Shown here piece after piece: positions 7,871-36,715 of a stretch of DNA of 39,577 bases. The stretch covers positions 1 to 39,577 of the forward strand of contig JADLHZ010000066.1 of the NCBI GenBank assembly GCA_020848545.1, read 5' to 3'. A program made the position numbers and the translations under genes. Under the pieces are notes generated by a model. It searched no databases and was not told the origin of the DNA. It worked only from the letters and a program-made list of their open reading frames with translations. The DNA comes from Deltaproteobacteria bacterium. Its GTDB lineage: Bacteria > Myxococcota > JADLHZ01. Positions within the stretch are counted from its first letter, which is position 1. Every line of letters starts with the position of its first letter.

Positions 7871-10800
7871 TCAGCGCGTCAAAGTCACGCGGGACTCCGC
7901 GCGCACGGTCGGCACCATCGTCTGCAGCGTGTTCCAAAGGTCCTCTCGGCCGACGTAGACCGTCGGATCCTCGGGCGGATCTTGACGCGGCGGCCGCGCC
8001 ATCGTCATCGGCGGATTCACCGTCACCGAATAGGTCAGCGTGCGGACGACGGTCGTCGCCGGAGCCGCGCCCGGGATCGCCGCGTTCCACACGATCGTCC
8101 CGTTGTTGAAGAAGCACTCGTCGGGCACCTGGCAGATCGGCACGACCGGCGCCGCCAGGCTCCACAGCGCGTTCGGCACCACGTCGACGAGCGTCTCGAT
8201 GTGCGGCGTCGCGACCTTGCTCTCGACCGCGAGCGTGTAGGTGACCGTGTCGCCGGGGATGACATTGTACTTGTCGGGCGTCTTGTGCGGGATCCAGGTG
8301 TCGAGACAGGCGATGATCAGCGGCGACTGTGACAGCTTCCAGTTCAGCCAATAGGGTTTCTCCATGTGCTGCGCCGCGATCGTGTTCGTCTGATCCCAGA
8401 CGACGACGCTGTGATAAAAGATGCCGGCCGCCGGGCACGTCCACATGACGGTCGAGCCGAATGCATCGGGGTCGTCGTCAGCGTCGTCGACCTCGTCGCG
8501 GTCGCAGTCCTCCGTGCAGGGCATGTCGAAGAGCGCGCCGCCCGGCGGTGCCGGATAGGCCGGCAGCGGCGCCGGGATGTCGTTGGCGTTGTCGTGATCC
8601 CAGATGTAAACGGCAGCGCCCGTGTCCGGCACGTCGTTCTGCGGAGTGCCGTCGGTGTCGCTCGAACCCATCGCCGACAGGGTGAAGAGTTGGCCGACGA
8701 AGCCGGCGATCACTTTGACGCAGCCGCCGCCGGCGACCCGCACGCAAGCGTCGGCGGTCGGCTTGTAATAGCGGTGCAGGAGCTCGTCCCAGGTCGTGCT
8801 CGCCGGGAAGAGAAACTGCGCGACGGCCGGGCGCGGGTGGTTCGTGCCGCGCAGGCGCGCGAGAAGCAGCGCGGCGTCCTCGGCGTAGATCTTCGGCGAG
8901 GGAAAGGGATTGTCGAAGCTCGGCTCGTAGTCGTTCAGATCGGCCAAGCGCTCCGGCAGGAGCTCTTCGTGCGGGAAATAGATCGACAAACCGCGGGCGT
9001 CTTTGAACCCTGGCCCGTGTTTTTCATCGAGCACGACGGCCCCGCCCTTCGCCAGCTTGTCGACGAGCCCCGGCGCATGCGCGCGGTAAGGCTCGGGGAC
9101 GCCCGACTTGTACACCTTGTAGGCGAAGTCGCGCAGGTCGATGAAGCCCCTGTCCTGAAACTTCAGCGCGAGCTCGAGCCCTTGGTGCTTGAGCAGGATC
9201 TCGACGTTGTCGCTTGGATCGTCGAGCTTCTGTACGTCTTCGCAGCCCGTGCGCAGCTCGGTGGCGAGCGCCGATAGGTCGGTGCGCATCTCGACCCACG
9301 GCGACGCGCCGGTGGCGCCCGGGCGCGGCGACAGGCGCACGGCGCTGATCGTGCGGCCGTCGAACATGGTCTTCGTCGAGAAGTAGGTGTCGTAGGCCGC
9401 GACGATGTGCTTGCCGAGATCCTCGCCGTTCCACATCTTGGCGTTCGTCGCGAGCCCCGAGAGGATCTCTTCGTACGGCCAGCCCTCGGCGTGCTCGCGC
9501 GCCTCCGAGCCGACCATGACGCCGACGCTGACGCCGCCCGATTCGCGGATTTGCTCGCCCACCTCGGCCATCTGCATCATGTCCATGTCCCAACCGACGA
9601 GGTCGACGAACGGCGCCTTGCCAGTGCCCATCTTGTACTGGCTGCCGGCTTCGATCTTCTTGCCAAACGAGACGATCGCTGGCGTCACTTCGCTCCACTC
9701 GAGCGCGTCGTTGGCGGCGCCGCCGGCCGCCGTGCGATCGGCGCCGGGGCCGATGGGCGGCGCGTCGATGGCGATCTTCCAACCATGCCCGGCGCCCCAG
9801 AAGATCAGCGCGTAGTGCTCGGCTGGGAAGTGATCGACGCCCCACTTGACGAAGTCTTCGAGCGCCTGCTGCGAACCCATGTTCACTTCGCCGAGATCTT
9901 TGTTGCCGGCACGCACGCTGTACTGGCTCTCCATCTTCTTATGATCTTTGCGCACGCAGTAACGCACGGCGCGGCCGTTGTTCATCGCGTCGCCGTCGTA
10001 GCTGCGCGTTTGGTAGTCAATCTGCGCGAGCACCTGCACGTCTTTGGTCGCCTCGAGCCCGGAGCCCGTCGCCTCCATGTCGTTGAGCGCTTCGAACGCG
10101 CGCGTATCCAGATCGCCGCCTTTGCCATCGCTCTCGGCGGCCATGTAGACGAGCGTCGTCCACTGCGTCGGCGAAACCAGCCGCACGGTGAAGGCGCCGG
10201 CGCCGCTCACGCGTCGCGCCACGATGAAGTAGCGGCCGTCGGCAGGCACTTCGAAGCTGAGCTCCTCGTCGGCCTTGTCTTTGGTGATCGCGCGCTGCTC
10301 TTTGCCGCTCGCGTCTTTCAAGAGCTCCGGCTCGCCGGCGGTGCCGCGCGGGAGCGTACCGCGGTAGACGTAGAGATCGAAGTCGGCGCCCATGTCGGGG
10401 CCGTCGAGGATCACTTTGTACTGCCGGCCGGAATAGAGCTGCACGTGGCGCACCCAGACCTTGCTGTCGGCGACGCCGCCGCCGAAGGTGCCCTCTTCCT
10501 CGCCGCAGAATTCCTTTTCGACGGCGTCGATCGCGGCGTCGATCTGCAGATGGCCGTAGCCTTCGCGCGAGTCCTTGCCTCCGCGATCGTAACCATCGCC
10601 GTTACCGAACGGCGATCGCATCGCGCCAGCGTCGTCGCGCCGCGGGTTGTTCCACGCGAGCCCGTTTTCGAAGAGCGGCCCGACGATGTCCGCCGGATAG
10701 CCTGTGGCGGCAGCGAGCGGCGGGCGCTGGATGCCGCCGGCGGCGGGCTGCGGGGCGTAGTTGATGTCGGCCGGCGGATCGAACTGGCGGTTTCCGTTCT

Positions 10801-12727
10801 GATCGTAGAACAGCTCGTCGGGTGGGCCGGAGCGCAGCTCGCCATTGCCGCTGCGGTCGTAGATCGAAAAGTCATCCGGCACGCGCTCGCCGTCTTCGAG
10901 CTCGTAGGTCGGCATCAACAGGAGCGACTTCAGTCGCAGCGCGTTCTCTTCGCGGTACTGCCAAGGCCCGACGTCCTCATCGATGATGCCGTCGCCGTCT
11001 TCGTCGACGCCGTCCCACCGCGTCTCTTCGTCGGTGGTGCCATCGGCGTCGCTGTCGTCGGCGGCATAGTCGGTCAACACCTCGGCGACGAGCATCGCGG
11101 CGCCGGCGACCATCGGCGACGCCATCGACGTTCCTGACATCTCTTCAGAGTCGTTTGCCGGAGGCGCGGGCGGCGCCGGCGCGCCGAACGCACCCCCCGG
11201 CGCCGGTGCGGCGTTCGAGCGAATCGAGCGGATCTCGGACTGCTGCAGCAGCGTCGGCAACAAGCGCGAGATTCCGCCAGGTGCCGTGACGTCGGGCTTG
11301 GTGCGAGCGCCGCCGAAGCCGTTCGAGGAATACGACGCGAGAATGCCGGCGTCGATCGCCGCGGCGACGGTGACCACCTTCGCGGCGGTCCCCGGCGAGC
11401 TCACGTAGCCGGTGCTGTCGAACTCGTTGCCCGCGGCGACGACGAAGAGAATGCCGGACTCGACGAGGTGATTGGCGCGCCGCTCGCTGACGACCTGGGG
11501 CACCGAGCTGCCCATGCTCATGTTGGCGACGATGGTGTGCATGCCGGCGGCGCCCATCTCGAGCCAGCGAAACGAGCGCAGCGACGAGTTCGAGGTGCCG
11601 CGCACCCGTAACCCGACGAGCTTCGTGTCGCGGGCGATGCCGGGCGGCGTGGCGGTGCCGCCCATCGGCGCCGCCACACCCGCCCCGGCCGCGATACCGC
11701 CGACGTGCGAGCCGTGTCCCACGACGTCCGTCGGTACCGCGGCGGCTGGGAGGAGGTCGTCGTTCCAACCGATCACCTTGGCGGCGCCGGCGCCGAGCGC
11801 ACCCGCGGCAAACTGAAGGCCCGCGTGCGTCGAATCGAGGCCGCTGTCGACGATCGCGACCGAGGTCTGCGGGTCGCCGCGATGCTGCGGGTTCGCCGCC
11901 CACACCTGCGTCGCCCGCAGGTTCGTGGCGGCGACGTCCAAGTAGTAGACGAGCTCGGCGTCGGGATCGATGAACGCGAGCCGCGAGCCGAGCGCTTCGC
12001 GATACGCAAAAACTTCGCCCGCGGGCAGCGTGCCAGTGAACTCACGCTCGCCCTCGAGCGCGTCCTCGATCTCGCCGCCATGGGCTTCGAAGAGCGGGCG
12101 GTCGACGGCCTCCATGTAGTCGTCTTCGAGGCTGACCGCGATCGCGACGCGATCGCTCGGCATGCGCGCGATTTGGGCCGCGAGAAAGTCGTTCACTTGA
12201 TCGAAGTCGACGTCGGCGATGAACGGCGTCGGCGTCACCCGCGTGCGCACGCCGTCCAGGCGCCCCGCCGGGATGCGGGCGTCGCACGCGAGCGTGGCCG
12301 TGGCGCCGACATCGAAGACACCGCCGGCGGGGAGGGTGAACGCGCACGTCGGGTCGTTCGAGGTCGTGGCGACGAAGCCGTCGCCCGACGCGCCTTCCGC
12401 CGTCGCGACGCCCCCGATCACGTCGACCATGACATCGATGCGCAGGTGATCGATCGCGCGCGACGTCGTGTTCGCGATCGGCAGCACCACATGCACCTTC
12501 GTCAGGTCGTTCGGGTCGATCTGCACGATGCGCTGGACGTCGGGCCACGCGCTCACGCGCTCGGCGCCGTCCGCGACCGGCAGCGGAGCTGGTACGCTCG
12601 TGCGGCGAAACGGCGGTAGACGATCGCTCGCGCCGTCGCCGCCGATCGGCGCGGGCGGGGGCGGAGCACAAAAGCTGAGCGTCACGAGGGCGGCGAGTCC
12701 GATCCTTTGCATGGCGCGGGCTAACAT
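7871..12727 (-). CDS. Exported subtilase (S8) with a clostripain-like domain and C-terminal DUF11-like domain
   Basis: A 1618-aa secreted protein. The ATG at 12727 is preferred because GGAA lies just upstream and it leaves a clean signal sequence (LARAMQRIGLAALVTL); the frame is open 15 codons further to 12772. The subtilase triad is Asp294 (AIVDSGLD), His338 (GHGSHVGG) and Ser534 (GTSMASPMVAG), so that domain should be active. Asp-rich calcium-loop sequences follow at about 555-590 (DEDGDGIIDED). A prepeptidase-like beta domain lies near 720-840. A clostripain (C11)-like domain spans about 860-1200, with His981 in WGAGHGW. Asp1049 falls where the family has its catalytic Cys (GWDMDMMQMAEV), so this second domain may be inactive. 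A DUF11-like beta domain is near the C-terminus. It lies 79 bp after the sterol-operon genes on the same strand but need not share their function. Confidence 0.9.
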   Translation of the reverse strand: MLARAMQRIGLAALVTLSFCAPPPPAPIGGDGASDRLPPFRRTSVPAPLPVADGAERVSAWPDVQRIVQIDPNDLTKVHVVLPIANTTSRAIDHLRIDVMVDVIGGVATAEGASGDGFVATTSNDPTCAFTLPAGGVFDVGATATLACDARIPAGRLDGVRTRVTPTPFIADVDFDQVNDFLAAQIARMPSDRVAIAVSLEDDYMEAVDRPLFEAHGGEIEDALEGEREFTGTLPAGEVFAYREALGSRLAFIDPDAELVYYLDVAATNLRATQVWAANPQHRGDPQTSVAIVDSGLDSTHAGLQFAAGALGAGAAKVIGWNDDLLPAAAVPTDVVGHGSHVGGIAAGAGVAAPMGGTATPPGIARDTKLVGLRVRGTSNSSLRSFRWLEMGAAGMHTIVANMSMGSSVPQVVSERRANHLVESGILFVVAAGNEFDSTGYVSSPGTAAKVVTVAAAIDAGILASYSSNGFGGARTKPDVTAPGGISRLLPTLLQQSEIRSIRSNAAPAPGGAFGAPAPPAPPANDSEEMSGTSMASPMVAGAAMLVAEVLTDYAADDSDADGTTDEETRWDGVDEDGDGIIDEDVGPWQYREENALRLKSLLLMPTYELEDGERVPDDFSIYDRSGNGELRSGPPDELFYDQNGNRQFDPPADINYAPQPAAGGIQRPPLAAATGYPADIVGPLFENGLAWNNPRRDDAGAMRSPFGNGDGYDRGGKDSREGYGHLQIDAAIDAVEKEFCGEEEGTFGGGVADSKVWVRHVQLYSGRQYKVILDGPDMGADFDLYVYRGTLPRGTAGEPELLKDASGKEQRAITKDKADEELSFEVPADGRYFIVARRVSGAGAFTVRLVSPTQWTTLVYMAAESDGKGGDLDTRAFEALNDMEATGSGLEATKDVQVLAQIDYQTRSYDGDAMNNGRAVRYCVRKDHKKMESQYSVRAGNKDLGEVNMGSQQALEDFVKWGVDHFPAEHYALIFWGAGHGWKIAIDAPPIGPGADRTAAGGAANDALEWSEVTPAIVSFGKKIEAGSQYKMGTGKAPFVDLVGWDMDMMQMAEVGEQIRESGGVSVGVMVGSEAREHAEGWPYEEILSGLATNAKMWNGEDLGKHIVAAYDTYFSTKTMFDGRTISAVRLSPRPGATGASPWVEMRTDLSALATELRTGCEDVQKLDDPSDNVEILLKHQGLELALKFQDRGFIDLRDFAYKVYKSGVPEPYRAHAPGLVDKLAKGGAVVLDEKHGPGFKDARGLSIYFPHEELLPERLADLNDYEPSFDNPFPSPKIYAEDAALLLARLRGTNHPRPAVAQFLFPASTTWDELLHRYYKPTADACVRVAGGGCVKVIAGFVGQLFTLSAMGSSDTDGTPQNDVPDTGAAVYIWDHDNANDIPAPLPAYPAPPGGALFDMPCTEDCDRDEVDDADDDPDAFGSTVMWTCPAAGIFYHSVVVWDQTNTIAAQHMEKPYWLNWKLSQSPLIIACLDTWIPHKTPDKYNVIPGDTVTYTLAVESKVATPHIETLVDVVPNALWSLAAPVVPICQVPDECFFNNGTIVWNAAIPGAAPATTVVRTLTYSVTVNPPMTMARPPRQDPPEDPTVYVGREDLWNTLQTMVPTVRAESRVTLTR

Positions 12728-12806
12728 GAGTTCCGGTGGGGTTTCTACGAGCGGCTTTCGCTCGAAGGGCACCTGCGGGTTCAGATGTCGGACCTCAGGG
12801 CGAGGA

Positions 12807-15249: not shown

Positions 15250-16895
15250 CTCATGACCCCCGCCTGGCGCAAGCGCAAGAGCCAGTCGGCGCGGGCCTTG
15301 TCCCAGATCTTCGGCTTGAGCTGGGCGCGGCTCCACAGGGCGAAGTCGTCGGCGAGGACCTGGAAGCAGTTGTAGCCCGGGGCTGCGAGGATGCCGCCGT
15401 GCGGATGGGCCGAGGCGCCGCCGAGATAGAGCCCTGGCACCGGCGAGCGCATCTCGCCGAGGTCCGGCGTCGGCCGGTTGAAGGCGCCTTGGACCTGCGA
15501 GACGGCCGCGCAGTGAAAGCCGCCCCGGCGCATGTTGATCATCTTGCGCGCGATGTCGTCCGGCGAATAGGCGTAGACTCCGAGGATCTTGTCCGGCGTC
15601 AGGTTCGGCGCGTACGCGCGCCAGGCTTCGATGCAGCGCTCGGCATAGTCCTTCTTGAGGGCGCGCCAGCTCTCGGCGCTCTTGCCGCCCGGCTCGAAGG
15701 GCACGAACTGCCAGAGCAAGCCGGTGTGCTTCCCGGGCGGAGCTTGGGTCGGGTCAAACAGGGTATTGCAGCCGACCTCGAGGCGCGGGTGCTTGGGCAG
15801 CTCGTTGCGATCGATCTCTTCGTAGTGCTCGACGAGATCTTCGGGCGTTTCGTAGCCGATGTTGACGTTGAACGTGCGATCGATGTCCGGGTTGAACTTC
15901 GCGGCGCCGTAGCGGGGTGGCTCGCTCAACGCAAGGTGCACGCCGAAGAGCACGTCGCCGTGGCCATACTCGATCGCTGAGATGCGCGCGCGCGCGTCGG
16001 CCGCCAGCGCGCTCTCGGGCAGCATTTCGAGGAAAGTCTGCGTGGGATCGATCGTCGAGACGACGGCCTTCTTGGCGTCGACTTCGCTGCCGTCTGCGAG
16101 CGTCACGCCGCAGGCCTTGCCGTTCTCGAGACGGATCTGCCGCACCGGGCTCAGCTCGAAGAGGTCGCCACCCGCCTTCTGAAAGACGGTGCCGAGCACG
16201 TGCGCCAAGTGGTGGGAGCCGCCGCGGCAGAGCTGCCAGTTGGTGATGTAGCCGACGAACGCCATGCCGAGCATCGCCAGGCGCGGCCGGCGGATGTCCC
16301 AGCCGCCGACGGCCATGTGAAAGAGCAGCAACGCCTGCACGTGCGGGTTCTCGAATCGGCTCTTGACGAAATCGAGCGCGCTCATCTGTGAGAGGTCCTG
16401 GCCGAACCAGCGCTTCATCTCCTCGGCGAGCAGCGCCTCGGCGTCGGGCGCGCGAATCGGCGGCGAGTAGCCGGCGGCGAGCAGGTCCTCGAGGTGCGTG
16501 ACGAGCTGACCGCGAAGCTCGAGCCAGGCGTCGGCGTCGTGCTTCGAGAAACGGGCGATTTGCTCGTAGGACTCGAGCTCGTCGACATAGAGCACGAGCG
16601 CGCGCCCGTCGGCGAGCGGCATGCCGATGTTGGCCTTTGGGTGGATGTACGTGAGCCCGAGCGCCTCGAGCTCGAAGTCATGGTAGGGCGGAAAGAATGG
16701 CATCGCGCCATGAAAGTTCGAGTGCAAGTTGTGCGAGAAGCCGGCGATCGTGGACTCCTCGGTCGACAGGCCGCCGCCGAACTCGGCGCGCCGCTCGAGG
16801 ATGACCACGTCTTGGCCGGCCCGCGCCAGGTAGCAGCCGAGCGTCAGCCCGTTGTGGCCGGCGCCGATGATGACGAAGTCGTAGGCGCGTTTCAT
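15246..16895 (-). CDS. CrtO/PYROXD2-like FAD-dependent oxidoreductase (first copy)
   Basis: A 549-aa flavoprotein, paralogue of the next gene in the operon. The N-terminus has GAGHNG at 11-16, then LERRAEFGGGLSTEESTIAG for the FAD site. The C-terminus carries GLYLGGASAHPHGGILAAPG. The central region includes RGGSHHLAHVLG, which corresponds to the substrate-binding domain of this superfamily. I chose the ATG at 16895 because it overlaps the stop of the sterol reductase gene by 4 bases (ATGA) and starts directly at the dinucleotide fold. Known relatives act on carotenoids or other polyenes, or are uncharacterised (PYROXD2). Coupling to an ERG4-type reductase makes an isoprenoid or sterol substrate the best guess. 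A soluble or peripheral membrane location is expected. Confidence 0.88.
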   Translation of the reverse strand: MKRAYDFVIIGAGHNGLTLGCYLARAGQDVVILERRAEFGGGLSTEESTIAGFSHNLHSNFHGAMPFFPPYHDFELEALGLTYIHPKANIGMPLADGRALVLYVDELESYEQIARFSKHDADAWLELRGQLVTHLEDLLAAGYSPPIRAPDAEALLAEEMKRWFGQDLSQMSALDFVKSRFENPHVQALLLFHMAVGGWDIRRPRLAMLGMAFVGYITNWQLCRGGSHHLAHVLGTVFQKAGGDLFELSPVRQIRLENGKACGVTLADGSEVDAKKAVVSTIDPTQTFLEMLPESALAADARARISAIEYGHGDVLFGVHLALSEPPRYGAAKFNPDIDRTFNVNIGYETPEDLVEHYEEIDRNELPKHPRLEVGCNTLFDPTQAPPGKHTGLLWQFVPFEPGGKSAESWRALKKDYAERCIEAWRAYAPNLTPDKILGVYAYSPDDIARKMINMRRGGFHCAAVSQVQGAFNRPTPDLGEMRSPVPGLYLGGASAHPHGGILAAPGYNCFQVLADDFALWSRAQLKPKIWDKARADWLLRLRQAGVMR

Positions 16896-18328
16896 GACGA
16901 AGATCTCCCGACGAGTGATGCGAACGCGACGAGCACCGTCCAGACGCCTGGAATGAACACCCACGGGACCGCCTCTTCGTAACGCTTCCAGTCGGCGCCG
17001 TACTTCTTCCGGCAACGGGCGACGTCGCGCGAGGCGCGGTGGGTGATCATCACAACGAAGAAGCAGAAGTAGAGATAGGGCAGGAAGGCGTCGAAGCCGC
17101 AGACGAGGCCCCACGAGAGCGCCATCACGGCGTCGGCCACGTTCGGCACTTTGCGGGCGTAGCGCCACCAGCCGTCGACGAGCAACCGGTTGCCATGCGC
17201 GGTCTGGATGAAGCGAGGATTCTCGAGCGTGTTCCACGGCAGCTGCGGGAAAGCCTTGCGCTTGATGTAGGTCCCGCGCTCCTGCATGCGGAAATGCACG
17301 CGCTGCGCGAGCGAGGTGTCCCAAACATAGTAGGCCGCGAGCAGCAACGAAAAACAGAAGATCGTGTACGCCGCCGAGTGCGCGATCGGCGGGCGCGAGG
17401 CGAGGTACATCGAGTTGAAGCAGTAGAGGAACGGCACGCCGGCGAGGTTCCAGAAGATGAGCATCCAGCCCCACTTCTCGTAGAAGAAGTCCCAGGTGGC
17501 GGGAATGCACTCGTCGCCCTTCATGCACGCGTTGGTGTACAGCCCGTGCGCGAGCAGCATGAAGATCAGGGGTGCGCTGAGCACGCCGTGGGTCGCATAC
17601 TGGTGCGCCGCAGCGCCGGCCGTGAGCAAGAAGAGCAGAATCCACGAGACGCGGATCTCTGCCCACATCTTCAGGTCGAGGGCGCCGATGCGCGGGTTCA
17701 GCTCGGCGCCCATGAAGAAGTCGTAGATGAAGCTCCCGGACATCCGGTGCGTCCGTCTTCGCAGGTGCGCCGCCACGAACGCCGCGACGGCGACGGCATT
17801 GCTCGCGAGGATCGCCACGGTCATCAGCTCGCCGAAGCGTTCGTACAGGCGCTGCAGCGGAAAGATCCCTGAAAAGTGCAGCGCCGCCGCGAGGACGAGC
17901 GTGCCATACCAGCAGGCGAGCGCGTTGCAGCGATAGTCGAGGCGCCGCCCGTTCTCGGACGGGATGGGCAGCCCCTTGACGTCGAAGCCAGGCATGACGA
18001 CGGCGAAGATCGACTGCTGCGCGAGAAACGCCGCGTAGATGCCGAGCGCCCACAGACTCGGCGAGGCGCCTTCTACGACGTGCGCCCACATGCGCCCGAG
18101 CCAAGGCCCGATGTCCGCGACGCCCACTGGGTGCGGAGCTGAGCCGCCCGCATAGCGCCACGCGATCCACATGTAATAGAGGAGCGCGTGCGAGAGCACC
18201 ATGATGGCAGCGACGCCCTTGGTGCCTCCGAACTCGCGGACGACGTCGCTGTCGTGGGCGTGCGGGTGTGCGCCTTCGTTCGTCTTCGCCTGTGCGCCGG
18301 GCGCTGCGCACGGTTCAGCGTCAGTCAT
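16892..18328 (-). CDS. ERG4/ERG24-family sterol reductase, ERG4 (C-24(28))-like
   Basis: A 478-aa multispanning membrane protein with about nine hydrophobic segments. It carries the signature blocks of the ERG4/ERG24/DHCR7 family: LNPRIG at 210-215 within YDFFMGAELNPRIGALDLKM, KGDECIPATWDFFYEKWGWM at 270-289, LLVDGWWRYARK at 382-393, and the C-terminal HRASRDVARCRKKYGADWKR at 430-449. The ECIP-TWD-FYEK and AYYVWDT blocks fit the ERG4 (Delta24(24(1))-sterol reductase) branch better than the C-14 reductases, from memory of those families. Those enzymes use NADPH to reduce sterol double bonds. The gene leads a five-gene operon with flavoproteins and an SRPBCC protein. The ATG at 18328 follows AGGAA almost directly, and the N-terminus is His-rich and soluble for ~35 residues. 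Bacterial members are sporadic and their substrates are mostly unknown. No sterol cyclase or epoxidase is in the window. Confidence 0.9.
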   Translation of the reverse strand: MTDAEPCAAPGAQAKTNEGAHPHAHDSDVVREFGGTKGVAAIMVLSHALLYYMWIAWRYAGGSAPHPVGVADIGPWLGRMWAHVVEGASPSLWALGIYAAFLAQQSIFAVVMPGFDVKGLPIPSENGRRLDYRCNALACWYGTLVLAAALHFSGIFPLQRLYERFGELMTVAILASNAVAVAAFVAAHLRRRTHRMSGSFIYDFFMGAELNPRIGALDLKMWAEIRVSWILLFLLTAGAAAHQYATHGVLSAPLIFMLLAHGLYTNACMKGDECIPATWDFFYEKWGWMLIFWNLAGVPFLYCFNSMYLASRPPIAHSAAYTIFCFSLLLAAYYVWDTSLAQRVHFRMQERGTYIKRKAFPQLPWNTLENPRFIQTAHGNRLLVDGWWRYARKVPNVADAVMALSWGLVCGFDAFLPYLYFCFFVVMITHRASRDVARCRKKYGADWKRYEEAVPWVFIPGVWTVLVAFASLVGRSSS

Positions 18329-18379: not shown

Positions 18380-19570
18380 ATGTTCGTCAGGCATGATCTG
18401 CTGATGGCCCGCAGCGTTCACGTCGGCCTGGGTTTCGCCATCTGGGTGTTGTCTGCGGCTTCCCTCGCGACCGGGTGCCAGTCGCGAGCGGTGTCGAAGG
18501 CGGCGCCCGTCACCGCGCTCAACTTCGACTCGCACGATCCACACTTTCCCATCGCCAACGGGACGCATGGCGGCGCCGACTGCAACACCTGTCACGGCGC
18601 CTTCGAATCATTCGCGCGCTTCGATTGTACGGCGTGCCACGAGCACGACGCGGCGATCGTCGACGCCACGCATGCTGGCATCGTCACCGGCTACAGCTAC
18701 TCGCCGACGTCCTGCTATGAATGTCACCCGCGTGGCCAACGCGCGTCGTTCGACCATGCGCAGCGCTTTCCCATCGACGCCGCCAGCCATCACGCGCTCG
18801 TCGCGTGCGCGAGCTGTCATCCGAACGCGAGCGATCGCAAGGCGTTCGATTGCACGACGTGCCACACCGACGCGCAAACGACGCCGAACCACGCCGGCGT
18901 CAGCGGGTACGCGTGGTCGAGCGCGAGCTGCTATCAGTGCCATCCGACCGGCCAGGCGTCGGGCTCGGGATCGAGCCACACGCCGTTTCCGATCGGCCCA
19001 GCCACGACGCACGACAACGCGAAGATCCCATGCGCGTCGTGTCACCCGACAGCCGACAAGAAGGTGTTCGACTGCACGACGTGTCACACGCAAGCGGCGA
19101 CGGATCCCTGGCATACGACGGTCACCGACTACGCCTGGTCGAGCCCGAGCTGCTACCAGTGTCATCCGCAAGCGGAGGTGACGGGCTTCGATCACAACCC
19201 GTACTTTCCGATCGACATGGGCGCTACGCACGGCGCGCTCGGGTGCAGCGAGTGCCACAAGAACCCGGCGAACCGCACGCAGGTCGCCTGCACCGGCGCT
19301 TGCCACACGTCGCCGGCGATGACCAACGAGCACACGCCCGTCGGTGGCTACAAGTACGACACCGCGAGCTGCCTCGCCTGCCACGCCGACTCGCAAGTGA
19401 CCCTCGTGGCGACGCATCCGGTCTGCCCGATCAACCGAGGGCATCACCAAAAAGAGCCGTGCCTCGTCTGCCACGGCGCGAAGCGCAGCGACAAGCCGTT
19501 CGGACAAGACTTCACCAAGGTCAACTGCCTCGCGTGTCACGGCAACAAGGGAGCGATCTGTGAACCCTGA
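18380..19570 (+). CDS. Exported multihaem cytochrome c with 14 predicted haem sites in ~62-residue repeats
   Basis: A 396-aa exported protein with 13 CXXCH motifs and one CX3CH (CTGACH), so up to 14 covalent haems. The ATG at 18380 has AAGG 5 bases upstream and gives a signal sequence (GLGFAIWVLSAASLATGC). Cys in LATGC may be a lipid-attachment site. The mature part is built of four repeats of about 60-65 residues, each with the order FPI, CxxCH, FDCTTCH-like, GYxW, SCYQCHP, that is three haems per repeat. A final shorter unit carries two haems. The CX3CH replaces the second motif of repeat four. Many His residues outside the motifs could be distal ligands. It should act in the periplasm or at the outer membrane in electron transfer. 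It lies beside a cbb3 oxidase locus, though a direct link is not shown. Confidence 0.92.
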   Translation: MFVRHDLLMARSVHVGLGFAIWVLSAASLATGCQSRAVSKAAPVTALNFDSHDPHFPIANGTHGGADCNTCHGAFESFARFDCTACHEHDAAIVDATHAGIVTGYSYSPTSCYECHPRGQRASFDHAQRFPIDAASHHALVACASCHPNASDRKAFDCTTCHTDAQTTPNHAGVSGYAWSSASCYQCHPTGQASGSGSSHTPFPIGPATTHDNAKIPCASCHPTADKKVFDCTTCHTQAATDPWHTTVTDYAWSSPSCYQCHPQAEVTGFDHNPYFPIDMGATHGALGCSECHKNPANRTQVACTGACHTSPAMTNEHTPVGGYKYDTASCLACHADSQVTLVATHPVCPINRGHHQKEPCLVCHGAKRSDKPFGQDFTKVNCLACHGNKGAICEP

Positions 19571-19719: not shown

Positions 19720-20454
19720 TCATTTGGCCACCGCGGCGCCGTGGCAGTGCATCGGCTGCGCAGACGCTTCGCTGACGCCGGCAGACGGAGCCACGAACGC
19801 GATCCGCAAAACGATGAACAGCGCTGCGAGCGCAGCCACGACGCGCCGGACCGATTGCGCGCGCGGGCGGCGCATCCACGCGAGCGAGCCGAACGCACTC
19901 GTGGCGACGAGCGCCGGCGCCGTCCCGAGGGCGAAGGCCGAGAGCAACGCGGCGCCGCGCGGTGCATCGCCTGCGGCGATCGCGAGGGGCACCGTGCTGT
20001 AGAGAAATCCGCACGGGATGAGCGCCGTGATGCCGCCGATGAACGCCGCGAGCGGAATGCCTGGCGGTGGTCGAAAGCGCGCGAGGCGTTTGAGCGGGAG
20101 GTAGGGCAAGAGGACCTTCGGCACTTCGAGATCGATCGCCTGCGCGACGAGCCATGTTACCAAGAGGAAAGGTAGCAGTTTCGAGACGGTAACATCGAGG
20201 CTCAGATCGAGGGCGTGTCCGAGCGCGCCGAAGATCGCGCCGATCGCCGCATATCCTGCGAGCCGCGTCACTTGGTACGTGAGCTGGCCTGCCTTCTGCA
20301 CAGGCACCGCATCGCTCGCGACGACTGGCAATGCGGCCCGTCGCCGCGAAGGAGACGAGGCGACGATGGTCAGCGGACCGCACATCGCGACACAATGTAG
20401 GCTGCCGGCGAGCCCATATGTGAAAGCAGCGAAGAGCGATGCGACGTCGAGCAT
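19720..20454 (-). CDS. TauE/SafE-family membrane protein of the cbb3 oxidase locus
   Basis: A 244-aa polytopic membrane protein with about six hydrophobic segments. The N-terminus has the family motif LHCVAMCGPL at residues 19-28, and ALIPCGFLYS lies in the middle. Proteins of this type (annotated as sulfite exporter TauE/SafE family) are common beside ccoI/ccoNOP and are thought to help copper or thiol handling during cbb3 assembly, a family-level inference. The C-terminal PMHCHG could bind metal. The ATG at 20454 shares the palindrome CATG with the ATG of the divergent ccoI gene, and no better start exists before the first membrane helix. Neither direction has a convincing ribosome binding site, so leaderless translation is possible. 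Confidence 0.85.
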   Translation of the reverse strand: MLDVASLFAAFTYGLAGSLHCVAMCGPLTIVASSPSRRRAALPVVASDAVPVQKAGQLTYQVTRLAGYAAIGAIFGALGHALDLSLDVTVSKLLPFLLVTWLVAQAIDLEVPKVLLPYLPLKRLARFRPPPGIPLAAFIGGITALIPCGFLYSTVPLAIAAGDAPRGAALLSAFALGTAPALVATSAFGSLAWMRRPRAQSVRRVVAALAALFIVLRIAFVAPSAGVSEASAQPMHCHGAAVAK

Positions 20455-22693
20455 GGACGCCGAAAATGCAAATGCGCGACCAAGGTCGCGTTGCCTCCAC
20501 TGTGGATCGCCGAGCACCGACACGTACTGTTGCGCCGGGTGCCGCCAAGCGAGCGAGCTCGGTGGTGCGCTCAGCGTCGAAGAGCAGGAGCCCGACGCCG
20601 CGTGGCTCGTCTGCGATGTCGGCGGCTTGCACTGCGCCGCGTGCGTCTCGCTGATCGAAGCGACCTTTCGCGCGCAGCCTGGCGCTCGCGAGATCACCAT
20701 CAACCCCGCCCTCGGCAAAGCGGCGTTGCTCGTCGACGATCGTGCCTTCAAGCTCGACGTTTTCGCACGCGCGCTGGATCCGATGGGCTATCGCATCGGC
20801 GTCGCGCGCAAGCCCGAGGTGCCGGAGTCGCGCGCGTTGCTGATGCGTCTCGGCATCTGCTTCGCGCTCGCCGGCAACAGCATGGTTCTCTCCTTCGCGA
20901 TCTACTTCGGCTTGTCGCCGGCGGATCGCACGCTCTTTCTGACCGTCGGCTTTCTGAACTTCACGCTCGCGATCGCCTCGCTCTTCGTCGGCGGGAGCTA
21001 CTTTCTGCGCAACGCTTGGCAGGCGATCCGGGCGCGGGCGTGGCACATCGACATTCCGCTCGCGCTCAGCGTTGTCCTCGCGTTCGGCGGCGCCACGTGG
21101 ATCTTCTTCTCGAGCGGGTTCGGCGCCACCTACTTCGACACGTTCACGGCGTTCATCGCGTTGATGCTGCTCGGCAAGTACGCGCCGGCGCGCATCGTCG
21201 AACAGAATCGCGCGTCGCTGCTCGAAGACGACGGCATCTCGTCGCTGCCTCAGACGCGGATGAGGGGCGACGAGCGCGAGCAGATCGCCGCGAGCGAGAT
21301 CGTCGCTGGCGATACCTTGGTGTTCGCGCCGGGGGACCTCGTCTCGGTCGACGCCGTGCTCCTCGATGCTCAGGCGCTGTGCTCGCTCGATTGGATCACC
21401 GGCGAGCCGCGTGCCGTCGGCTTCGTGCGCGGCGAGCGCGTTCCGGCCGGAGCGTTCAACGTGGGCGACAGCGCATTTGCGGCGCGTGCGCAGACGGCGC
21501 TCGTCGCTTCACCGTTGCCGCAGCTCTTGGCCGGCGGTGCCCGCACGACGAGCGAGAAGCGACAGGCGCGCTCGTTCGCCACGTTCAGCCGAGTGTTCGT
21601 GCTGGCGGTGCTCGCGATCGCGCTCGTGACCTTCGGCGCGTGGGCGTTCTTCGACGTCGAGCGCGGACTGTGGGCCGCGGTGTCGGTGCTGATCGTCGCG
21701 TGTCCATGTGCGATTGGGCTCGGGACGCCGCTCGCGCGCGAGATCGCGGCGCGGCGCCTGCGCTCGTCGGGCGTCTTCGTCAGAAACGAGCGCGCGTTCG
21801 ATGCGCTGGCAGCGGTCGAGACGATCGTCTTCGACAAGACCGGCACGTTGACCGAGATCTCGGTGTCGCGAGAAACAGCGGCGCAGCTCGAAGCGCTCGC
21901 GGGTCTGCACCGGCCCGTGCTCGCGACGATGGTGAACAGCAGCAACCACCCGGTGGCGCGCGCGGTGCGATCGGCGGTCGACGACACCATGCGCGCGCCG
22001 TGCAAGGTGCGCGAGGTGCCTGGCCTCGGCCTCGAGGCGGAGCTCGGCGACGGCATCGTCTACCGCTTGAAGAGCGCGGGAGGCCGCACCGTGTTCACGA
22101 TCGACGAGGGACTGCGCGAGGATGTGCTCGCCGAGATCGATCTCGACGAAGTCGTGCGCTCTGACGCGATGAGTGAAGCCTCACGCCTGCGCGCGCTCGG
22201 CTTTCAGCTCGGCATCTTGAGTGGCGATCGCCAGGAGCGCGTCGACGCCATCGCGGCGCGCCTCGGCTTCGAGGGCTCGCGGTGCATCGGCGAGCTGAAG
22301 CCGCGCGACAAGGCCGAGTGGCTCTCGCGTCACGGCGATGCGCACACCCTCTTTCTCGGCGACGGCATCAACGACGTGCCGGCGTTCGAGGCCGCGGCGT
22401 GCTCGGGCACCCCGGCGATCGATCGGCCCTTCGTGCCGGCGCGCACGGACTTCTACTACCGCGCCGCCGGGCTGTGGCCGATCCGCGAAGCGATTACGGC
22501 GAGCCGCGCGTACGCCGGCGCCGTGCGCTTCAACTATGGGTTCGCGCTCGTCTACAACGTCGTCGTGCTCTCGGTGGCCGCCGCCGGCGTGATGTCGCCG
22601 CTGATCGCCGCCATCGTCATGCCGGCGAGCTCACTGGCGATCGTGCTGTGCAATGCGCTGATGATGCGGAGGGCGCCGTGGAGATCCTCTTGA
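20453..22693 (+). CDS. ccoI: CcoI/FixI-type copper-transporting P1B ATPase
   Basis: A 746-aa P-type ATPase that exports Cu for assembly of the cbb3 oxidase. The N-terminus has the CcoI-type Cys cluster (Cys14, 17, 26, 27, 30) and a heavy-metal domain with HCAAC at 60-64. The transport motif CPC is at 417-419, the phosphorylated Asp is Asp461 in DKTGTLTE, the nucleotide-binding HP is in SNHPVARAV, and the hinge is GDGINDVPA from 636. About eight membrane helices are expected. The phosphatase motif reads TGEP instead of the usual TGES. The ATG at 20453 is the only start before the Cys cluster, and it overlaps the TauE/SafE start on the other strand. It is the first gene of the cco operon and overlaps ccoS by 16 bases. 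Confidence 0.95.
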   Translation: MDAENANARPRSRCLHCGSPSTDTYCCAGCRQASELGGALSVEEQEPDAAWLVCDVGGLHCAACVSLIEATFRAQPGAREITINPALGKAALLVDDRAFKLDVFARALDPMGYRIGVARKPEVPESRALLMRLGICFALAGNSMVLSFAIYFGLSPADRTLFLTVGFLNFTLAIASLFVGGSYFLRNAWQAIRARAWHIDIPLALSVVLAFGGATWIFFSSGFGATYFDTFTAFIALMLLGKYAPARIVEQNRASLLEDDGISSLPQTRMRGDEREQIAASEIVAGDTLVFAPGDLVSVDAVLLDAQALCSLDWITGEPRAVGFVRGERVPAGAFNVGDSAFAARAQTALVASPLPQLLAGGARTTSEKRQARSFATFSRVFVLAVLAIALVTFGAWAFFDVERGLWAAVSVLIVACPCAIGLGTPLAREIAARRLRSSGVFVRNERAFDALAAVETIVFDKTGTLTEISVSRETAAQLEALAGLHRPVLATMVNSSNHPVARAVRSAVDDTMRAPCKVREVPGLGLEAELGDGIVYRLKSAGGRTVFTIDEGLREDVLAEIDLDEVVRSDAMSEASRLRALGFQLGILSGDRQERVDAIAARLGFEGSRCIGELKPRDKAEWLSRHGDAHTLFLGDGINDVPAFEAAACSGTPAIDRPFVPARTDFYYRAAGLWPIREAITASRAYAGAVRFNYGFALVYNVVVLSVAAAGVMSPLIAAIVMPASSLAIVLCNALMMRRAPWRSS

Positions 22694-22824
22694 TGCTCAT
22701 TTTCATCAGCTTCGTGTTCATGGTCGGCGCCATTCTTGCGTTCGTCTACAGCGTCAAGAGCGGCGAAGCCGACCACGCCGATCGTTTGGCCCTGATGCCT
22801 TTCCGTGAGGAGGAAAAAAAGTGA
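22678..22824 (+). CDS. ccoS: CcoS-like cbb3 oxidase maturation protein
   Basis: A 48-aa single-span membrane protein with N-terminal helix MEILLMLIFISFVFMVGAIL, followed by AFVYSVKSGEADHAD, similar in layout to the W-x-x-x-x-GQF-x-D region of CcoS. CcoS is needed to insert cofactors into cbb3 oxidase. The GTG at 22678 has GGAGGG 6-7 bases upstream and lies inside the end of ccoI. Its stop overlaps the GTG of ccoNO by 4 bases. The family assignment rests mainly on size, position and the short motif. Confidence 0.85.
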   Translation: MEILLMLIFISFVFMVGAILAFVYSVKSGEADHADRLALMPFREEEKK

Positions 22825-25112
22825 AACAGATCGAGATCACCTACGACGATCGCATCAGCCGGCAGTTCATCGCGGCGTCGATCATCTTCGGGCTCGTCGG
22901 CATGCTGGTCGGCGTCTTGGCGGCCGCGCAGCTCTCGTTCTTCCAAGCGAACCTCGGGACGTCGTTTCTGAGCTTCGGCCGCATCCGGCCGCTGCACACG
23001 AACGCCGTGATCTTCGCCTTCGTCGGCAACATGATCTTCGCCGGCATCTACTACTCGACGCAGCGGCTCTTGAAGGCGCGCATGGCGTCGGACTTGCTCT
23101 CTCAGTTTCACTTTTGGGGCTGGCAGGCGATCATCCTGGCCGCCGCGATCACGCTGCCGCTCGGCATCACCCAGGGTAAAGAGTACGCCGAGCTCGAGTG
23201 GCCGATCGATCTCGCGATCGCGATCGTGTGGGTGGCGTTCGCCGTGAACTTCTTCTGGACCCTCGCGCGCCGGCGCGAGAAGCAGCTCTACGTCGCCATC
23301 TGGTTCTACATCGCGACGATCCTGACGGTCGCGTTGCTGCACATCGTCAACAACCTCTCGCTGCCGACGAGCATGACGCACAGCTTCCCTGTCTTCGCGG
23401 GCGTTCAGGGCGCGCTCGTGCAGTGGTGGTACGGCCACAACGCCGTCGCCTTCTTCCTGACGACGCCGGTGCTCGGCATCATGTACTACTTCCTGCCCAA
23501 GGCGGCCGAGCGGCCTGTCTATTCATACCGGCTGTCGCTCGTGCACTTCTGGTCGCTCATCTTCATCTACATCTGGGCCGGTCCGCATCATCTATTATAT
23601 ACGGCGCTCCCGGACTGGGCGCAGTCGCTCGGCATGCTCTTCAGCTTGATGCTGTGGGCGCCGAGCTGGGGCGGCATGTTGAACGGCCTCCTGACGCTGA
23701 AGGGCTCGTGGGGCAAGCTGCGCACCGATCCCGTGCTCAAGTTCTTCGCGGCGGGCGTCACGTTCTACGGAATGGCCACCTTCGAAGGGCCGCTCTTGTC
23801 GATCAAGAGCGTCAACGCGCTCGCGCACTATACGGACTGGATCATCGGCCATGTGCACGCCGGGGCGCTCGGCTGGAACGGCTTCATGGCCGCTGCGATG
23901 TTCTACTGGATGGTGCCGAAGCTCTACGGCACGAAGCTCTACTCGCGCGCGCTCGCCGACATGCACTTCTGGCTCGGCACCTTCGGCATCATCCTCTACG
24001 TCGTCGCGATGTGGGTGAGCGGCGTGACGCAAGGTCTCATGCTCAAAGCGGTGACGGCGTCGGGCGCGCTGCAATACCCGAGCTTCCTCGAGACGCTCGA
24101 GGCGGTGAAGCCGTTCTACATGATGCGGCTCATCGGTGGCTCATTCTACGTCATCGGCTTCGTGCTGATGATCTACAATCTATGGAAGACGGTGAAGAGC
24201 GGCGCGCCGGTCGAGGCGAGGTTGACCGTCACCGAGCCTGAAGCGGTGGCGCACGTTCCTGCGGGCAGGCTCGTTTTTTCCAAGCCGATCGCCATCATCT
24301 TCGTCATGCTCGGGTTGCTCCTCGGCTTTGCGACCCGGAATCATGGCCATTGGGTCGTCTACCTCGTCGCGCTCGCGATCACCTGCGTCGTCGCGTACGC
24401 ATGGAGCCCGCGCGAGGGCGACTACAGTTGGCATCGCATGCTCGAGGGCAAGGCGTTTTTGTTCAGCGCCTTCACCCTGCTCGCCGTGCTCATCGGCGGC
24501 ATCGTCGAGTTCGTACCGGCGCTCGCGTTGAAGCAGGCTGTTCCGACCGAAAACGCGCAGCGGCCGTACTCCGCGCTCGAGCTCGCGGGGCGCAACATTT
24601 ATGTCCGCGAAGGCTGCTACACCTGCCACTCGCAGATGGTGCGCTCGCTCGTCGGCGACACCGCGCGCTACGGCGAAGCGTCGAAGCCCGAAGAGTTCAT
24701 CTACGACATGCCGTACCAGTGGGGCAGCAAGCGCACCGGGCCCGACTTGCATCGCCTCGGCGGCAGGTATCCGGACCTATGGCACTACCAGCATATGCTC
24801 GACCCGCGCGCGACGTCACCGGGATCGAACATGCCGAGCTACGCATTTCTGAAAGACGCGGTGCTCGATACGAACGCGCTCGCGACGAACGTGCGCACGA
24901 TGCAAGCGCTCGGTGTGCCGTACCCCGCGAAGGCCGTGCTCGAAGCGGAGGCGCAGGCCCGCACAGACGGTGAGCGCATCGCTGCTGGTTTGAAAGCGCA
25001 GGGTGCGGACGTCGCCGCGAACAGCGAGCTCACCGCGCTCATCGCCTACCTGCAAAGCCTCTCATCGAAGGAGAAAGCGAATGTTTCAAGCGGCATTTCG
25101 CGCGCAGAGTGA
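22821..25112 (+). CDS. ccoNO: Fused cbb3 oxidase subunits CcoN-CcoO
   Basis: A 763-aa fusion of the catalytic subunit (CcoN, about residues 1-460) and the membrane-bound cytochrome c subunit (CcoO, about 480-763). CcoN ligands are visible: the haem b His in RIRPLHTNAV, the CuB and active-site region in WWYGHNAVAFFLTTPVLGIMYY, the paired His in AGPHHLLYTALPDW, and the high-spin and low-spin haem His in IGHVHAGALGWNG. CcoO has one haem c site, CYTCH at 599-603, followed by SQMVR, and a likely axial Met in PGSNMPSY. The joined region adds two extra helices around 485-540. The GTG at 22821 is set by GAGGAGG 7 bases upstream. It reduces O2 with high affinity and pumps protons in the inner membrane, for micro-aerobic respiration. 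Confidence 0.96.
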   Translation: MKQIEITYDDRISRQFIAASIIFGLVGMLVGVLAAAQLSFFQANLGTSFLSFGRIRPLHTNAVIFAFVGNMIFAGIYYSTQRLLKARMASDLLSQFHFWGWQAIILAAAITLPLGITQGKEYAELEWPIDLAIAIVWVAFAVNFFWTLARRREKQLYVAIWFYIATILTVALLHIVNNLSLPTSMTHSFPVFAGVQGALVQWWYGHNAVAFFLTTPVLGIMYYFLPKAAERPVYSYRLSLVHFWSLIFIYIWAGPHHLLYTALPDWAQSLGMLFSLMLWAPSWGGMLNGLLTLKGSWGKLRTDPVLKFFAAGVTFYGMATFEGPLLSIKSVNALAHYTDWIIGHVHAGALGWNGFMAAAMFYWMVPKLYGTKLYSRALADMHFWLGTFGIILYVVAMWVSGVTQGLMLKAVTASGALQYPSFLETLEAVKPFYMMRLIGGSFYVIGFVLMIYNLWKTVKSGAPVEARLTVTEPEAVAHVPAGRLVFSKPIAIIFVMLGLLLGFATRNHGHWVVYLVALAITCVVAYAWSPREGDYSWHRMLEGKAFLFSAFTLLAVLIGGIVEFVPALALKQAVPTENAQRPYSALELAGRNIYVREGCYTCHSQMVRSLVGDTARYGEASKPEEFIYDMPYQWGSKRTGPDLHRLGGRYPDLWHYQHMLDPRATSPGSNMPSYAFLKDAVLDTNALATNVRTMQALGVPYPAKAVLEAEAQARTDGERIAAGLKAQGADVAANSELTALIAYLQSLSSKEKANVSSGISRAE

Positions 25113-25251
25113 CGCCTTGCTCATCTGGCCCATCGCCGGCCTCGTGTTGTTCGTCGCCGTGTTTCTGTTGAATGTCATCGTCATCATGCGCCGGTCGAAG
25201 GAAGACATCGCCGCGAAGAGCCGGCTGCCGCTCGAAGGAGATCAGTCATGA
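25081..25251 (+). CDS. ccoQ: CcoQ-like small membrane subunit
   Basis: A 56-aa protein with a single membrane helix (LLIWPIAGLVLFVAVFLLNV) and a charged tail with RRSKEDI. Size, position between ccoNO and ccoP, and layout fit CcoQ, which stabilises the cbb3 complex. The ATG at 25081 has AAGGAGA upstream and lies within the last 32 bases of ccoNO. Its stop overlaps the ccoP start by 4 bases. Sequence similarity in this family is weak, so the name is based on position. Confidence 0.82.
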   Translation: MFQAAFRAQSDALLIWPIAGLVLFVAVFLLNVIVIMRRSKEDIAAKSRLPLEGDQS

Positions 25252-25775
25252 GCGATCATCACGACGGCATCGAAGAGCACGACAACCACTTGCCGAACTG
25301 GTGGCTCGTCACGCTCTTTGGCAGCATCGTCTTTTCGTTCGCTTATTGGACTTACTACGAGACGCTCGGGGTTGGCGCGGCGCAGGCGCAGGAGCTCGCG
25401 GGCGAAGAGGCGGCGTTGCGGGCGTTGCGCGAGAAGAGCGCGCCGCCGATCTCGGACGAGTCACTCCTCGCGCTGAGCAAGGACCAGAAGGTGGTCGCGA
25501 GCGGCGAGACGATCTTCAAGACGAACTGCGTCGCGTGCCACGGCATGCGCGCGGAAGGCTCGGTCGGTCCGAACCTCACCGACGCCTATTGGCTGCACGG
25601 CGGCAAGCCCATGCAGATCCACGGCGTGATCACGAAGGGCGTGACCGAGAAGGGCATGCTCGCGTGGGGCAACGTGCTCGGCGACGCCAAGGTGCGCGAC
25701 GTGACCGCGTTCGTGCTTTCACTGAAAGGGACGAATGTTCAGGGCAAGCCGCCGCAAGGAGAGAAGGATCCGTGA
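25248..25775 (+). CDS. ccoP: CcoP-like cbb3 oxidase cytochrome c subunit with a single haem
   Basis: A 175-aa membrane-anchored cytochrome c. The N-terminus is typical of CcoP (HDGIEEHDNHLPNWWLVTLF), followed by one membrane helix at about 20-38. It has only one haem motif, CVACH at 94-98, whereas common CcoP proteins have two. A likely axial Met is in EKGMLAWGN. At 175 residues it is clearly shorter than the usual ~300. The missing domain does not look like a recent truncation, since the single cytochrome domain is complete and the stop overlaps ccoG by 4 bases. It should deliver electrons to the fused CcoNO. The ATG at 25248 overlaps the ccoQ stop. Confidence 0.93.
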   Translation: MSDHHDGIEEHDNHLPNWWLVTLFGSIVFSFAYWTYYETLGVGAAQAQELAGEEAALRALREKSAPPISDESLLALSKDQKVVASGETIFKTNCVACHGMRAEGSVGPNLTDAYWLHGGKPMQIHGVITKGVTEKGMLAWGNVLGDAKVRDVTAFVLSLKGTNVQGKPPQGEKDP

Positions 25776-27139
25776 GCACCCGCGACGCTCCGGCGATCGA
25801 CAAGCTGTACACGATCGGTGAGGGTGGGCGTCGCAATTTCCTGCACCCGGCGGACGTGAAGGGCCCGCACACGACGCGGCGGCGAGTCATCGGCATCCTG
25901 CTCATTGCGTGGCTCTTCGCGCTGCCGTTCATCGAGATCGGTGGCTATCCCGCGATCTTCCTCGACGTAGGAACGCGCCGCTTCCACGTCTTCGGCGTCA
26001 CCTTTGGGCCGACCGACAGCATCTTGCTCTTCTTCCTGCTGACCGCTGTTGGCTTCGCGCTGGTCGTCGCGAGCGCGCTGTGGGGCCGCGTGTGGTGCGG
26101 CTACGCATGCCCGCAGACCGTGTTTCTCGAGCAGCTCTATCGGTGGGTCGAGCGCCTGATCGAAGGCTCGCGCGATCAGCAGATCCGGCTCGACAAAGCC
26201 CCGTGGTCTGCGGCGAAGGTGCTGCGCAAGGCCGCGAAGCACGGCGCGTTCATGCTCTTGTCGTTCATCCTCTCGCACTTGTTCCTCGCCTACTTCGTGG
26301 CGCCGAAGCCGCTCGCAGCCTTGATGAGGGCGGGGCCCATGGTCGAGCCGGCGATCTTCATCTGGGCGATGGCCGTGACCGCGTTCATGTACTTCAACTT
26401 CGCGTGGTTCCGAGAGCAGATGTGCATCATCATCTGCCCATACGGGCGCCTGCAATCAGCCCTCTCGGATCGCGACACGGTCGGCATCGCGTACGACACG
26501 CGGCGTGGCGAGCCTCGGGGTCGCGGCGAGAAGGACGGCGATTGCGTCGACTGCTTCCGCTGCGTGGCGGTGTGCCCGACCGGCATCGACATCCGTCAAG
26601 GCATGCAGCTCGAGTGCGTCGGCTGCGCTGCGTGCATCGACGCCTGCGACGACGTGATGGCGAAGGTGCGGCGGCCGCCCAGGCTCATCCGCTACGACAG
26701 CCAGCGCGGCGTGGAGGAAGGGCGCCGGCGTTTTTGGCGCCCGCGCGTCGGCGTTTACGCTGCGCTCGCGCTCGTCGGGCTCGCGGCGCTGTCGCTGACT
26801 GCCTTTTCGCGCCGGCCGCTCGGCGTCGCGTTGGTGCGGCAACCCGGGCTGCCCTACGTGATCGACGGTGATCTCGTGCGGAACGCGTTTGTCATCGCGG
26901 CGCACAACCAGAGCGACGAAGCGAAGACGCTCACCCTCATCGTGCACCTGCCGCCGTCGGCGCGGGTGCTCGGCGCGTTGGACACCGTCATGATCGCCCC
27001 GCGCGAGGATCTGCGCCAACCGGTGTTCCTGGAAGCGCCGCGATCGGTCGGGCCCTTCGACTTCTCGATCACGATCCGCGACGCTGCCGGCAAGGAGACG
27101 GTGCTGGCCGGCCGCTTCACCGCGCCGGTGGCGAAGTGA
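25772..27139 (+). CDS. ccoG: CcoG (RdxA/FixG) cbb3 oxidase accessory iron-sulfur protein
   Basis: A 455-aa membrane protein with about five helices. It has the CcoG order of Cys motifs: WCGYACPQ (Cys109, Cys113), IICPYGR, and two ferredoxin-like sets (Cys258, 261, 264, 268 and Cys282, 285, 288, 292). The last ~110 residues form the periplasmic immunoglobulin-like FixG C-terminal domain. The family reduces cupric to cuprous ion for the oxidase copper centre. The GTG at 25772 has GAGAAGGA upstream and overlaps the ccoP stop by 4 bases. The stop TGA abuts the stop of the convergent CBS gene. No ccoH gene is found next to it. Confidence 0.95.
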   Translation: MSTRDAPAIDKLYTIGEGGRRNFLHPADVKGPHTTRRRVIGILLIAWLFALPFIEIGGYPAIFLDVGTRRFHVFGVTFGPTDSILLFFLLTAVGFALVVASALWGRVWCGYACPQTVFLEQLYRWVERLIEGSRDQQIRLDKAPWSAAKVLRKAAKHGAFMLLSFILSHLFLAYFVAPKPLAALMRAGPMVEPAIFIWAMAVTAFMYFNFAWFREQMCIIICPYGRLQSALSDRDTVGIAYDTRRGEPRGRGEKDGDCVDCFRCVAVCPTGIDIRQGMQLECVGCAACIDACDDVMAKVRRPPRLIRYDSQRGVEEGRRRFWRPRVGVYAALALVGLAALSLTAFSRRPLGVALVRQPGLPYVIDGDLVRNAFVIAAHNQSDEAKTLTLIVHLPPSARVLGALDTVMIAPREDLRQPVFLEAPRSVGPFDFSITIRDAAGKETVLAGRFTAPVAK

Positions 27140-30370: not shown

Positions 30371-30618
30371 TCCGCGCCGAGCTCGAAGGAAAAGTCTTGT
30401 CCCTCATTTCGCAACTCTCGACGCTGAAGGCGCACGAGCTTCGTCGCGAGCAACGGCTTCGCGAGGATCTTGGCATGGACTCGGTGAGCTCGATGGAGCT
30501 CTTGTCGATGGTGGCCGAAGAGCTCGATCTCGACATCTCCGTTGAGGACGCCGCCGGCATCACCACCGTGGGTGGAACGCTCGAGCTCGTGGCGCAGCAC
30601 TACGAGAGGAGCGCGTGA
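30367..30618 (+). CDS. Acyl carrier protein
   Basis: An 83-aa acidic helical protein of ACP size. The phosphopantetheine site is Ser39 in LGMDSVSSMEL, where Asp-Ser-Val replaces the usual Asp-Ser-Leu. Helix two (SMELLSMVAEELDLDI) and the following loop fit the PP-binding fold. The ATG at 30367 overlaps the SDR stop by 4 bases. The stop TGA shares one base with the start of the acyl-CoA dehydrogenase gene. A dedicated ACP next to an acyl-AMP ligase implies that the chain is processed as a thioester on this protein. No phosphopantetheinyl transferase is in the window, so a general one would have to act. Confidence 0.92.
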   Translation: MIRAELEGKVLSLISQLSTLKAHELRREQRLREDLGMDSVSSMELLSMVAEELDLDISVEDAAGITTVGGTLELVAQHYERSA

Positions 30619-33319: not shown

Positions 33320-33326
33320 GGGAACG

Positions 33327-35045: not shown

Positions 35046-35053
35046 GGCGCAAA

Positions 35054-36712
<1,659 letters not shown>

Positions 36713-36715
<3 letters not shown>

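Follow-up and report, generated by a model that had tools for sequence, protein, structure and literature searches.

A lipid-anchored cytochrome of tandem triheme units from a Myxococcota genome as the probable outer component of a PCC3-like porin-cytochrome conduit

The porin-cytochrome conduits designated PCC3 and PCC4 are recognized by an inner-membrane protein that contains an SGxxG-type motif in addition to two copies of WX3HX13H (He et al. 2017, PMC5566968), and PCC3 further comprises a periplasmic cytochrome of approximately 21 haems, a porin, and a repeat-bearing surface cytochrome with 10-35 haems in Gallionellaceae (PMC10734462). Within the Myxococcota, a 2014 survey recorded a conduit of Anaeromyxobacter, and that only as a two-gene cluster of a porin and a 12-14-haem cytochrome (PMC4245776). 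A separate class of tandem triheme cytochromes is represented by Geobacter GSU1996, a monomeric periplasmic nanowire of 12 haems with one His-Met haem in each domain, for which a capacitor function has been proposed (PMC10138318).

The window considered here is a stretch of 39,577 nucleotides, contig JADLHZ010000066.1 of a Myxococcota assembly, and it harbors a gene (‘C’, Table 1) whose product is probably the displaced outer-membrane or surface cytochrome of a PCC3-like conduit. The gene stands alone, with a divergent gene upstream and an opposite-strand gene downstream. A second in-frame ATG is found at 18380, and the start at 18404 is the likelier of the two because it yields a lipoprotein signal: the N-terminus, MARSVHVGLGFAIWVLSAASLATGC, fits the PROSITE-style lipobox pattern, as do 14 of the 19 other family members that were checked. 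The single reading frame contains 13 CXXCH motifs and one CX3CH motif, arranged as four triads plus two; the 14 haem motifs claimed in a preliminary description of this DNA are thus all present, and 2,000 shuffles of the mature sequence gave a mean of only 0.22 CXXCH motifs and a maximum of 4. All three of its class III (c3/c7-like) Pfam matches exceed the curated cut-offs (PF14537, 55.7 bits against 25; PF02085, 51.4 against 22.9; PF14522, 48.2 against 24.8), although haem motifs inflate the scores of profiles of this type. Membership of the DmsE/MtrA decahaem family was rejected, since the window protein scores 23.3 bits with NCBIfam TIGR03508, whose curated cut-off is 192.2. AlphaFold models, whether of units 3-4 from a four-row alignment (pLDDT 48) or of the full protein from its single sequence (pLDDT 33), were unusable.

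Table 1. Coordinates of features in the window and of the conduit genes on contig C85 of the same genome
Feature	Position	Strand	Details
14-haem lipoprotein cytochrome gene (C)	18404..19570	+	388 aa
Signal peptide of C	18404..18475	+	ends before lipobox C25 (SLATGC); +2 residue Q
Triheme unit 1 (N-type: GAFESFARFDC)	18533..18745	+	CNTCH, CTACH, CYECH
Triheme unit 2	18746..18967	+	CASCH, CTTCH, CYQCH
Triheme unit 3	18968..19186	+	CASCH, CTTCH, CYQCH
Triheme unit 4, penultimate type, ending ..CLACHADSQV	19187..19402	+	CSECH, CTGACH, CLACH
Incomplete fifth unit, terminal-type	19403..19567	+	CLVCH, CLACH; signature RSDKPFGQDF; matched to relatives’ terminal units
CX3CH site CTGACH, second haem of unit 4	19289..19306	+	residues 296-301
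ERG4/ERG24-family sterol reductase, diverging upstream of C	16892-18328	-	PF01222, E 2e-122
DsbD_2-type gene, downstream of C	19720-20751	-	
CcoI, cbb3 locus	20279-22693	+	
CcoNO fusion (CcoN + CcoO)	22821-25112	+	763 aa
CcoP, cbb3 locus	25248-25775	+	
CcoG, next after cbb3 genes	within 25172-27139		
Subtilase (S8) + clostripain (C11) domain protein	7871-12772	-	1633 aa
AMP-binding, epimerase, carrier protein, acyl-CoA dehydrogenase, B12-binding radical SAM, two amine-oxidase-type genes	27777-36715	+	
Inner-membrane protein (IMP), contig C85	L033 6254-8749		
A, 20-haem cytochrome, contig C85	L033 8737-10413		
B, 10-haem cytochrome, contig C85	L033 10410-11201		
D, putative beta-barrel, contig C85	L033 11171-12802		

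The protein reads as four complete triheme units followed by one incomplete terminal unit. Landmarks of the FPI type at residues 48, 122, 195, 268 and 341 place the repeat period at 73 residues, and not at the approximately 62 residues given previously. The final segment, which had been described as a two-haem tail, does carry two haem motifs, and it is not a separate element: it displays the signature of the relatives’ terminal units, R.DKP[FYW]..DF..C..CH, and ends after the second haem, at the same point where the terminal units of several relatives also break off. A frameshift concealing a third haem of this unit was rejected, as no such motif is found in any downstream frame.

Alignment of 27 units from the window protein and related proteins demonstrated that the three haem motifs are invariant and are accompanied by exactly three invariant histidines outside the motifs, in the order H-H-C1-C2-H-C3, which supplies the one distal histidine per haem that is characteristic of class III cytochromes, with ligation predicted. 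In the window protein 14 positions match distal histidines for the 14 haems, so that full bis-His ligation is possible and all of the haems, if loaded, could be of that kind; only three methionines occur in the entire protein. The order of ligands and motifs corresponds better, if marginally, to haems I-II-III of cytochrome c3 than to haems I-III-IV of c7, and the unit profile, which returned only marginal c3/GSU1996 matches from the PDB, aligns (E about 0.01) to a stretch of cytochrome c3 that covers haems I-III. Given these histidines, three for every three haems, and the class III matches, the previously suggested role of electron carrier is plausible.

The search for orthologues with the same repeat that the preliminary description had called for, conducted with profiles and BLAST, recovered lipoproteins built from the same triheme units in other Myxococcota, most with 3-5 units and some with up to 17, and with 8 to 51 haem motifs. 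The longest, with 51 CXXCH motifs in approximately 17 units, are found in genomes G022 and G043 (L034 9181-13413, minus strand, and L035 8913-13589, plus strand). A distinct architecture was seen at L048 9679-17130 (plus strand), where a 2483-aa frame with 57 CXXCH motifs opens with a single triheme unit, after which a different long repeat takes over. Named genomes, when scanned, yielded one relative, and the nearest relatives of the source genome among the genomes searched have only the phylum in common with it.

Across 195 Myxococcota genomes the C profile matched 45, every one of which also matched D, a protein of approximately 550 residues that is a putative beta-barrel and was itself matched in 48; this co-occurrence corresponds to a hypergeometric P of about 5e-41 when shared ancestry is ignored, and the figure of 45 overstates the number of true C genes, because some matches represent a related module that ends the 10-haem cytochrome B. 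A 20-haem cytochrome, A, was matched in 49 genomes (46 of them with D). In 17 genomes C and D are adjacent and co-directional, with C first and 6-198 bp between them in the 16 that were measured between match ends, the 17th (G014) having been read from its open reading frame. The usual order, established from six loci read in detail (L032, L033, L036, L038, L041 and L042), is an inner-membrane flavo-cytochrome b with FAD, 4Fe-4S and transmembrane domains, then A (approximately 20 haems), B (approximately 10), C and D. Variations upon that order include a fusion of A and B (in G033), A-B-D sets without an adjacent C in some genomes, and a cluster in Abyssobacteria that has no separate C and in which B itself ends in one triheme unit.

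The source genome encodes the same inner-membrane protein, A, B and D contiguously on another contig, C85, where B abuts D and leaves no room for a C gene between them. The profile search recovered no C-type lipoprotein from this genome other than the product of the window gene, and the placing of that gene on one contig and of A, B and D on another departs from PCC3, where the surface cytochrome belongs to the same cluster. Contamination is an unlikely cause of this separation, since C85 and the window match in composition (both 66% GC; tetranucleotide r 0.95). Because the genes are unlinked, the partnership of the window protein with the conduit is one that we infer from its relatives. Three points go beyond what had been described before: the 73-residue repeat, the lipid anchor, and the connection to a putative porin-cytochrome cluster elsewhere in the genome. 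The assignment of D as a barrel would follow from its gene position together with an amphipathic alternation score devised for this analysis, for which D proteins gave z values of 1.4 (the weakest member) to 3.8, with controls lying between -1.3 and 1.3; D matched neither Pfam nor the PDB.

Comparison of the cluster with PCC3, by motifs and published descriptions, suggests a shared plan: an inner-membrane protein with paired WX3HX13H motifs, an approximately 20-haem A, a putative porin D, and a surface candidate of variable haem number. The pair, together with [ST]GxxG, is present in the inner-membrane proteins of the source genome (with T in place of S), G061, G035, G033 and G014; that of the Abyssobacteria cluster carries one WX3HX13H. 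The clusters from Myxococcota and Abyssobacteria differ from PCC3 in the fusion of the inner-membrane protein to FAD and 4Fe-4S domains, in the additional 10-haem cytochrome, and in having a lipoprotein of triheme units as the surface candidate; neither A nor B reaches the cut-off of TIGR03508. On the favoured reading the window protein would be an outer-membrane, probably surface-facing lipoprotein of c3/c7-like triheme modules. It would serve a PCC3-like conduit, whose other parts (the inner-membrane protein, A, B and putative barrel D) are encoded on C85, as its port for electrons on the outer side, and its closely spaced, predicted bis-His haems would relay electrons to an acceptor outside the cell or from a donor there.

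Two other roles can be weighed against that of an outer port. The protein might instead be a wire or electron store facing the periplasm, anchored in the inner leaflet of the outer membrane and without a part in crossing that membrane, as GSU1996, which may be regarded as its nearest structural analogue, also consists of tandem triheme domains (four in both), is of similar size and haem count, and is in keeping with the class III Pfam matches. This reading is unlikely, since GSU1996 is without the lipid anchor that the window protein’s signal predicts and its one His-Met haem per domain contrasts with three invariant distal histidines per unit here, while the relatives consistently lie beside D and a PDB search with the single sequence returned no significant match; a lipid-anchored tandem array without a close PDB relative also sets the protein apart from the known class III c3/c7 cytochromes. 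Its use as an electron donor to, or partner of, the cbb3-type oxidase encoded just downstream is very improbable: the oxidase possesses its own CcoP, an opposite-strand DsbD_2-type gene intervenes, and in the nine other genomes checked FixO was not found, or lay some 90 kb distant or on a separate contig, and a functional link was rejected on the ground that the proximity is not conserved.

A further alternative, compatible with any of these functions, concerns the CX3CH site, where the preliminary description had correctly placed CTGACH in the second motif of the fourth repeat and had suggested different processing by the haem lyase. The extra residue reflects one additional in-frame codon, and is therefore not a frameshift error. 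With that codon, and with CXXCH in the same slot of most members, the site could be degenerate and the protein reduced to 13 haems; such a loss is distinctly improbable, as unit 4 retains all three of its distal histidines (H264, H276 and H310) and the second-haem slot carries CX3CH or CX4CH in four other members. At least three others have CX3CH at a unit’s second haem (CTTTCH in G033, CGGTCH in G066 and CATSCH in G121), and CX4CH is found at the second haem in G061 and at the last haem in G066, G172, G146, G164 and G188. In cytochrome c3, second-haem sites are often CX4CH. A conserved CX3CH is also retained by homologues of ImcH (PMC6295460), which otherwise differs from the window protein, being an inner-membrane multihaem quinol-oxidising cytochrome of unrelated architecture with three transmembrane segments. 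The haem-maturation genes found in the genome form a single Ccm set of the System I type, comprising CcmF, CcmC and CcmB; a search for an additional CcmF/CcsA-type lyase or CcsBA found none, PF01578 matching only the adjacent CcmF and CcmC and a weak ResB match falling inside CcmF. With this single general set, the recurrence of CX3CH in the family and the precedent of ImcH, special processing is unsupported, and a dedicated lyase for CTGACH was rejected. Most likely the general Ccm system attaches a haem covalently at this site in the usual way, and the spacing of the motif appears to be a tolerated variant, a minor detail that recurs in the family.

Taken together with its relatives, the window gene, at four and two-thirds units, may have left the operon of a previously undescribed Myxococcota conduit, one that would combine a PCC3-like cytochrome b bearing fused flavin and Fe-S domains with a surface lipoprotein of 3 to 17 modules, a proposal that we advance tentatively. 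The papers found in a search of the open-licence literature give no description of such a conduit in Myxococcota, and an earlier one could have escaped that search; the two-gene conduit of Anaeromyxobacter in the 2014 survey (PMC4245776) differs from the cluster reported here. If the reading is right, a candidate conduit for extracellular electron transfer is present in approximately one quarter of the sampled Myxococcota genomes, namely those that encode the putative barrel, and the modular outer cytochromes would form a natural series for relating the length of a haem chain to the reach of electron transfer.

Elsewhere in the window, two FAD-dependent amine-oxidase-type genes adjoin the sterol reductase on the same strand, neighbours that suggest bacterial sterol or isoprenoid chemistry, and the run of genes from AMP-binding to amine-oxidase type resembles a gene cluster for a lipid or natural product.
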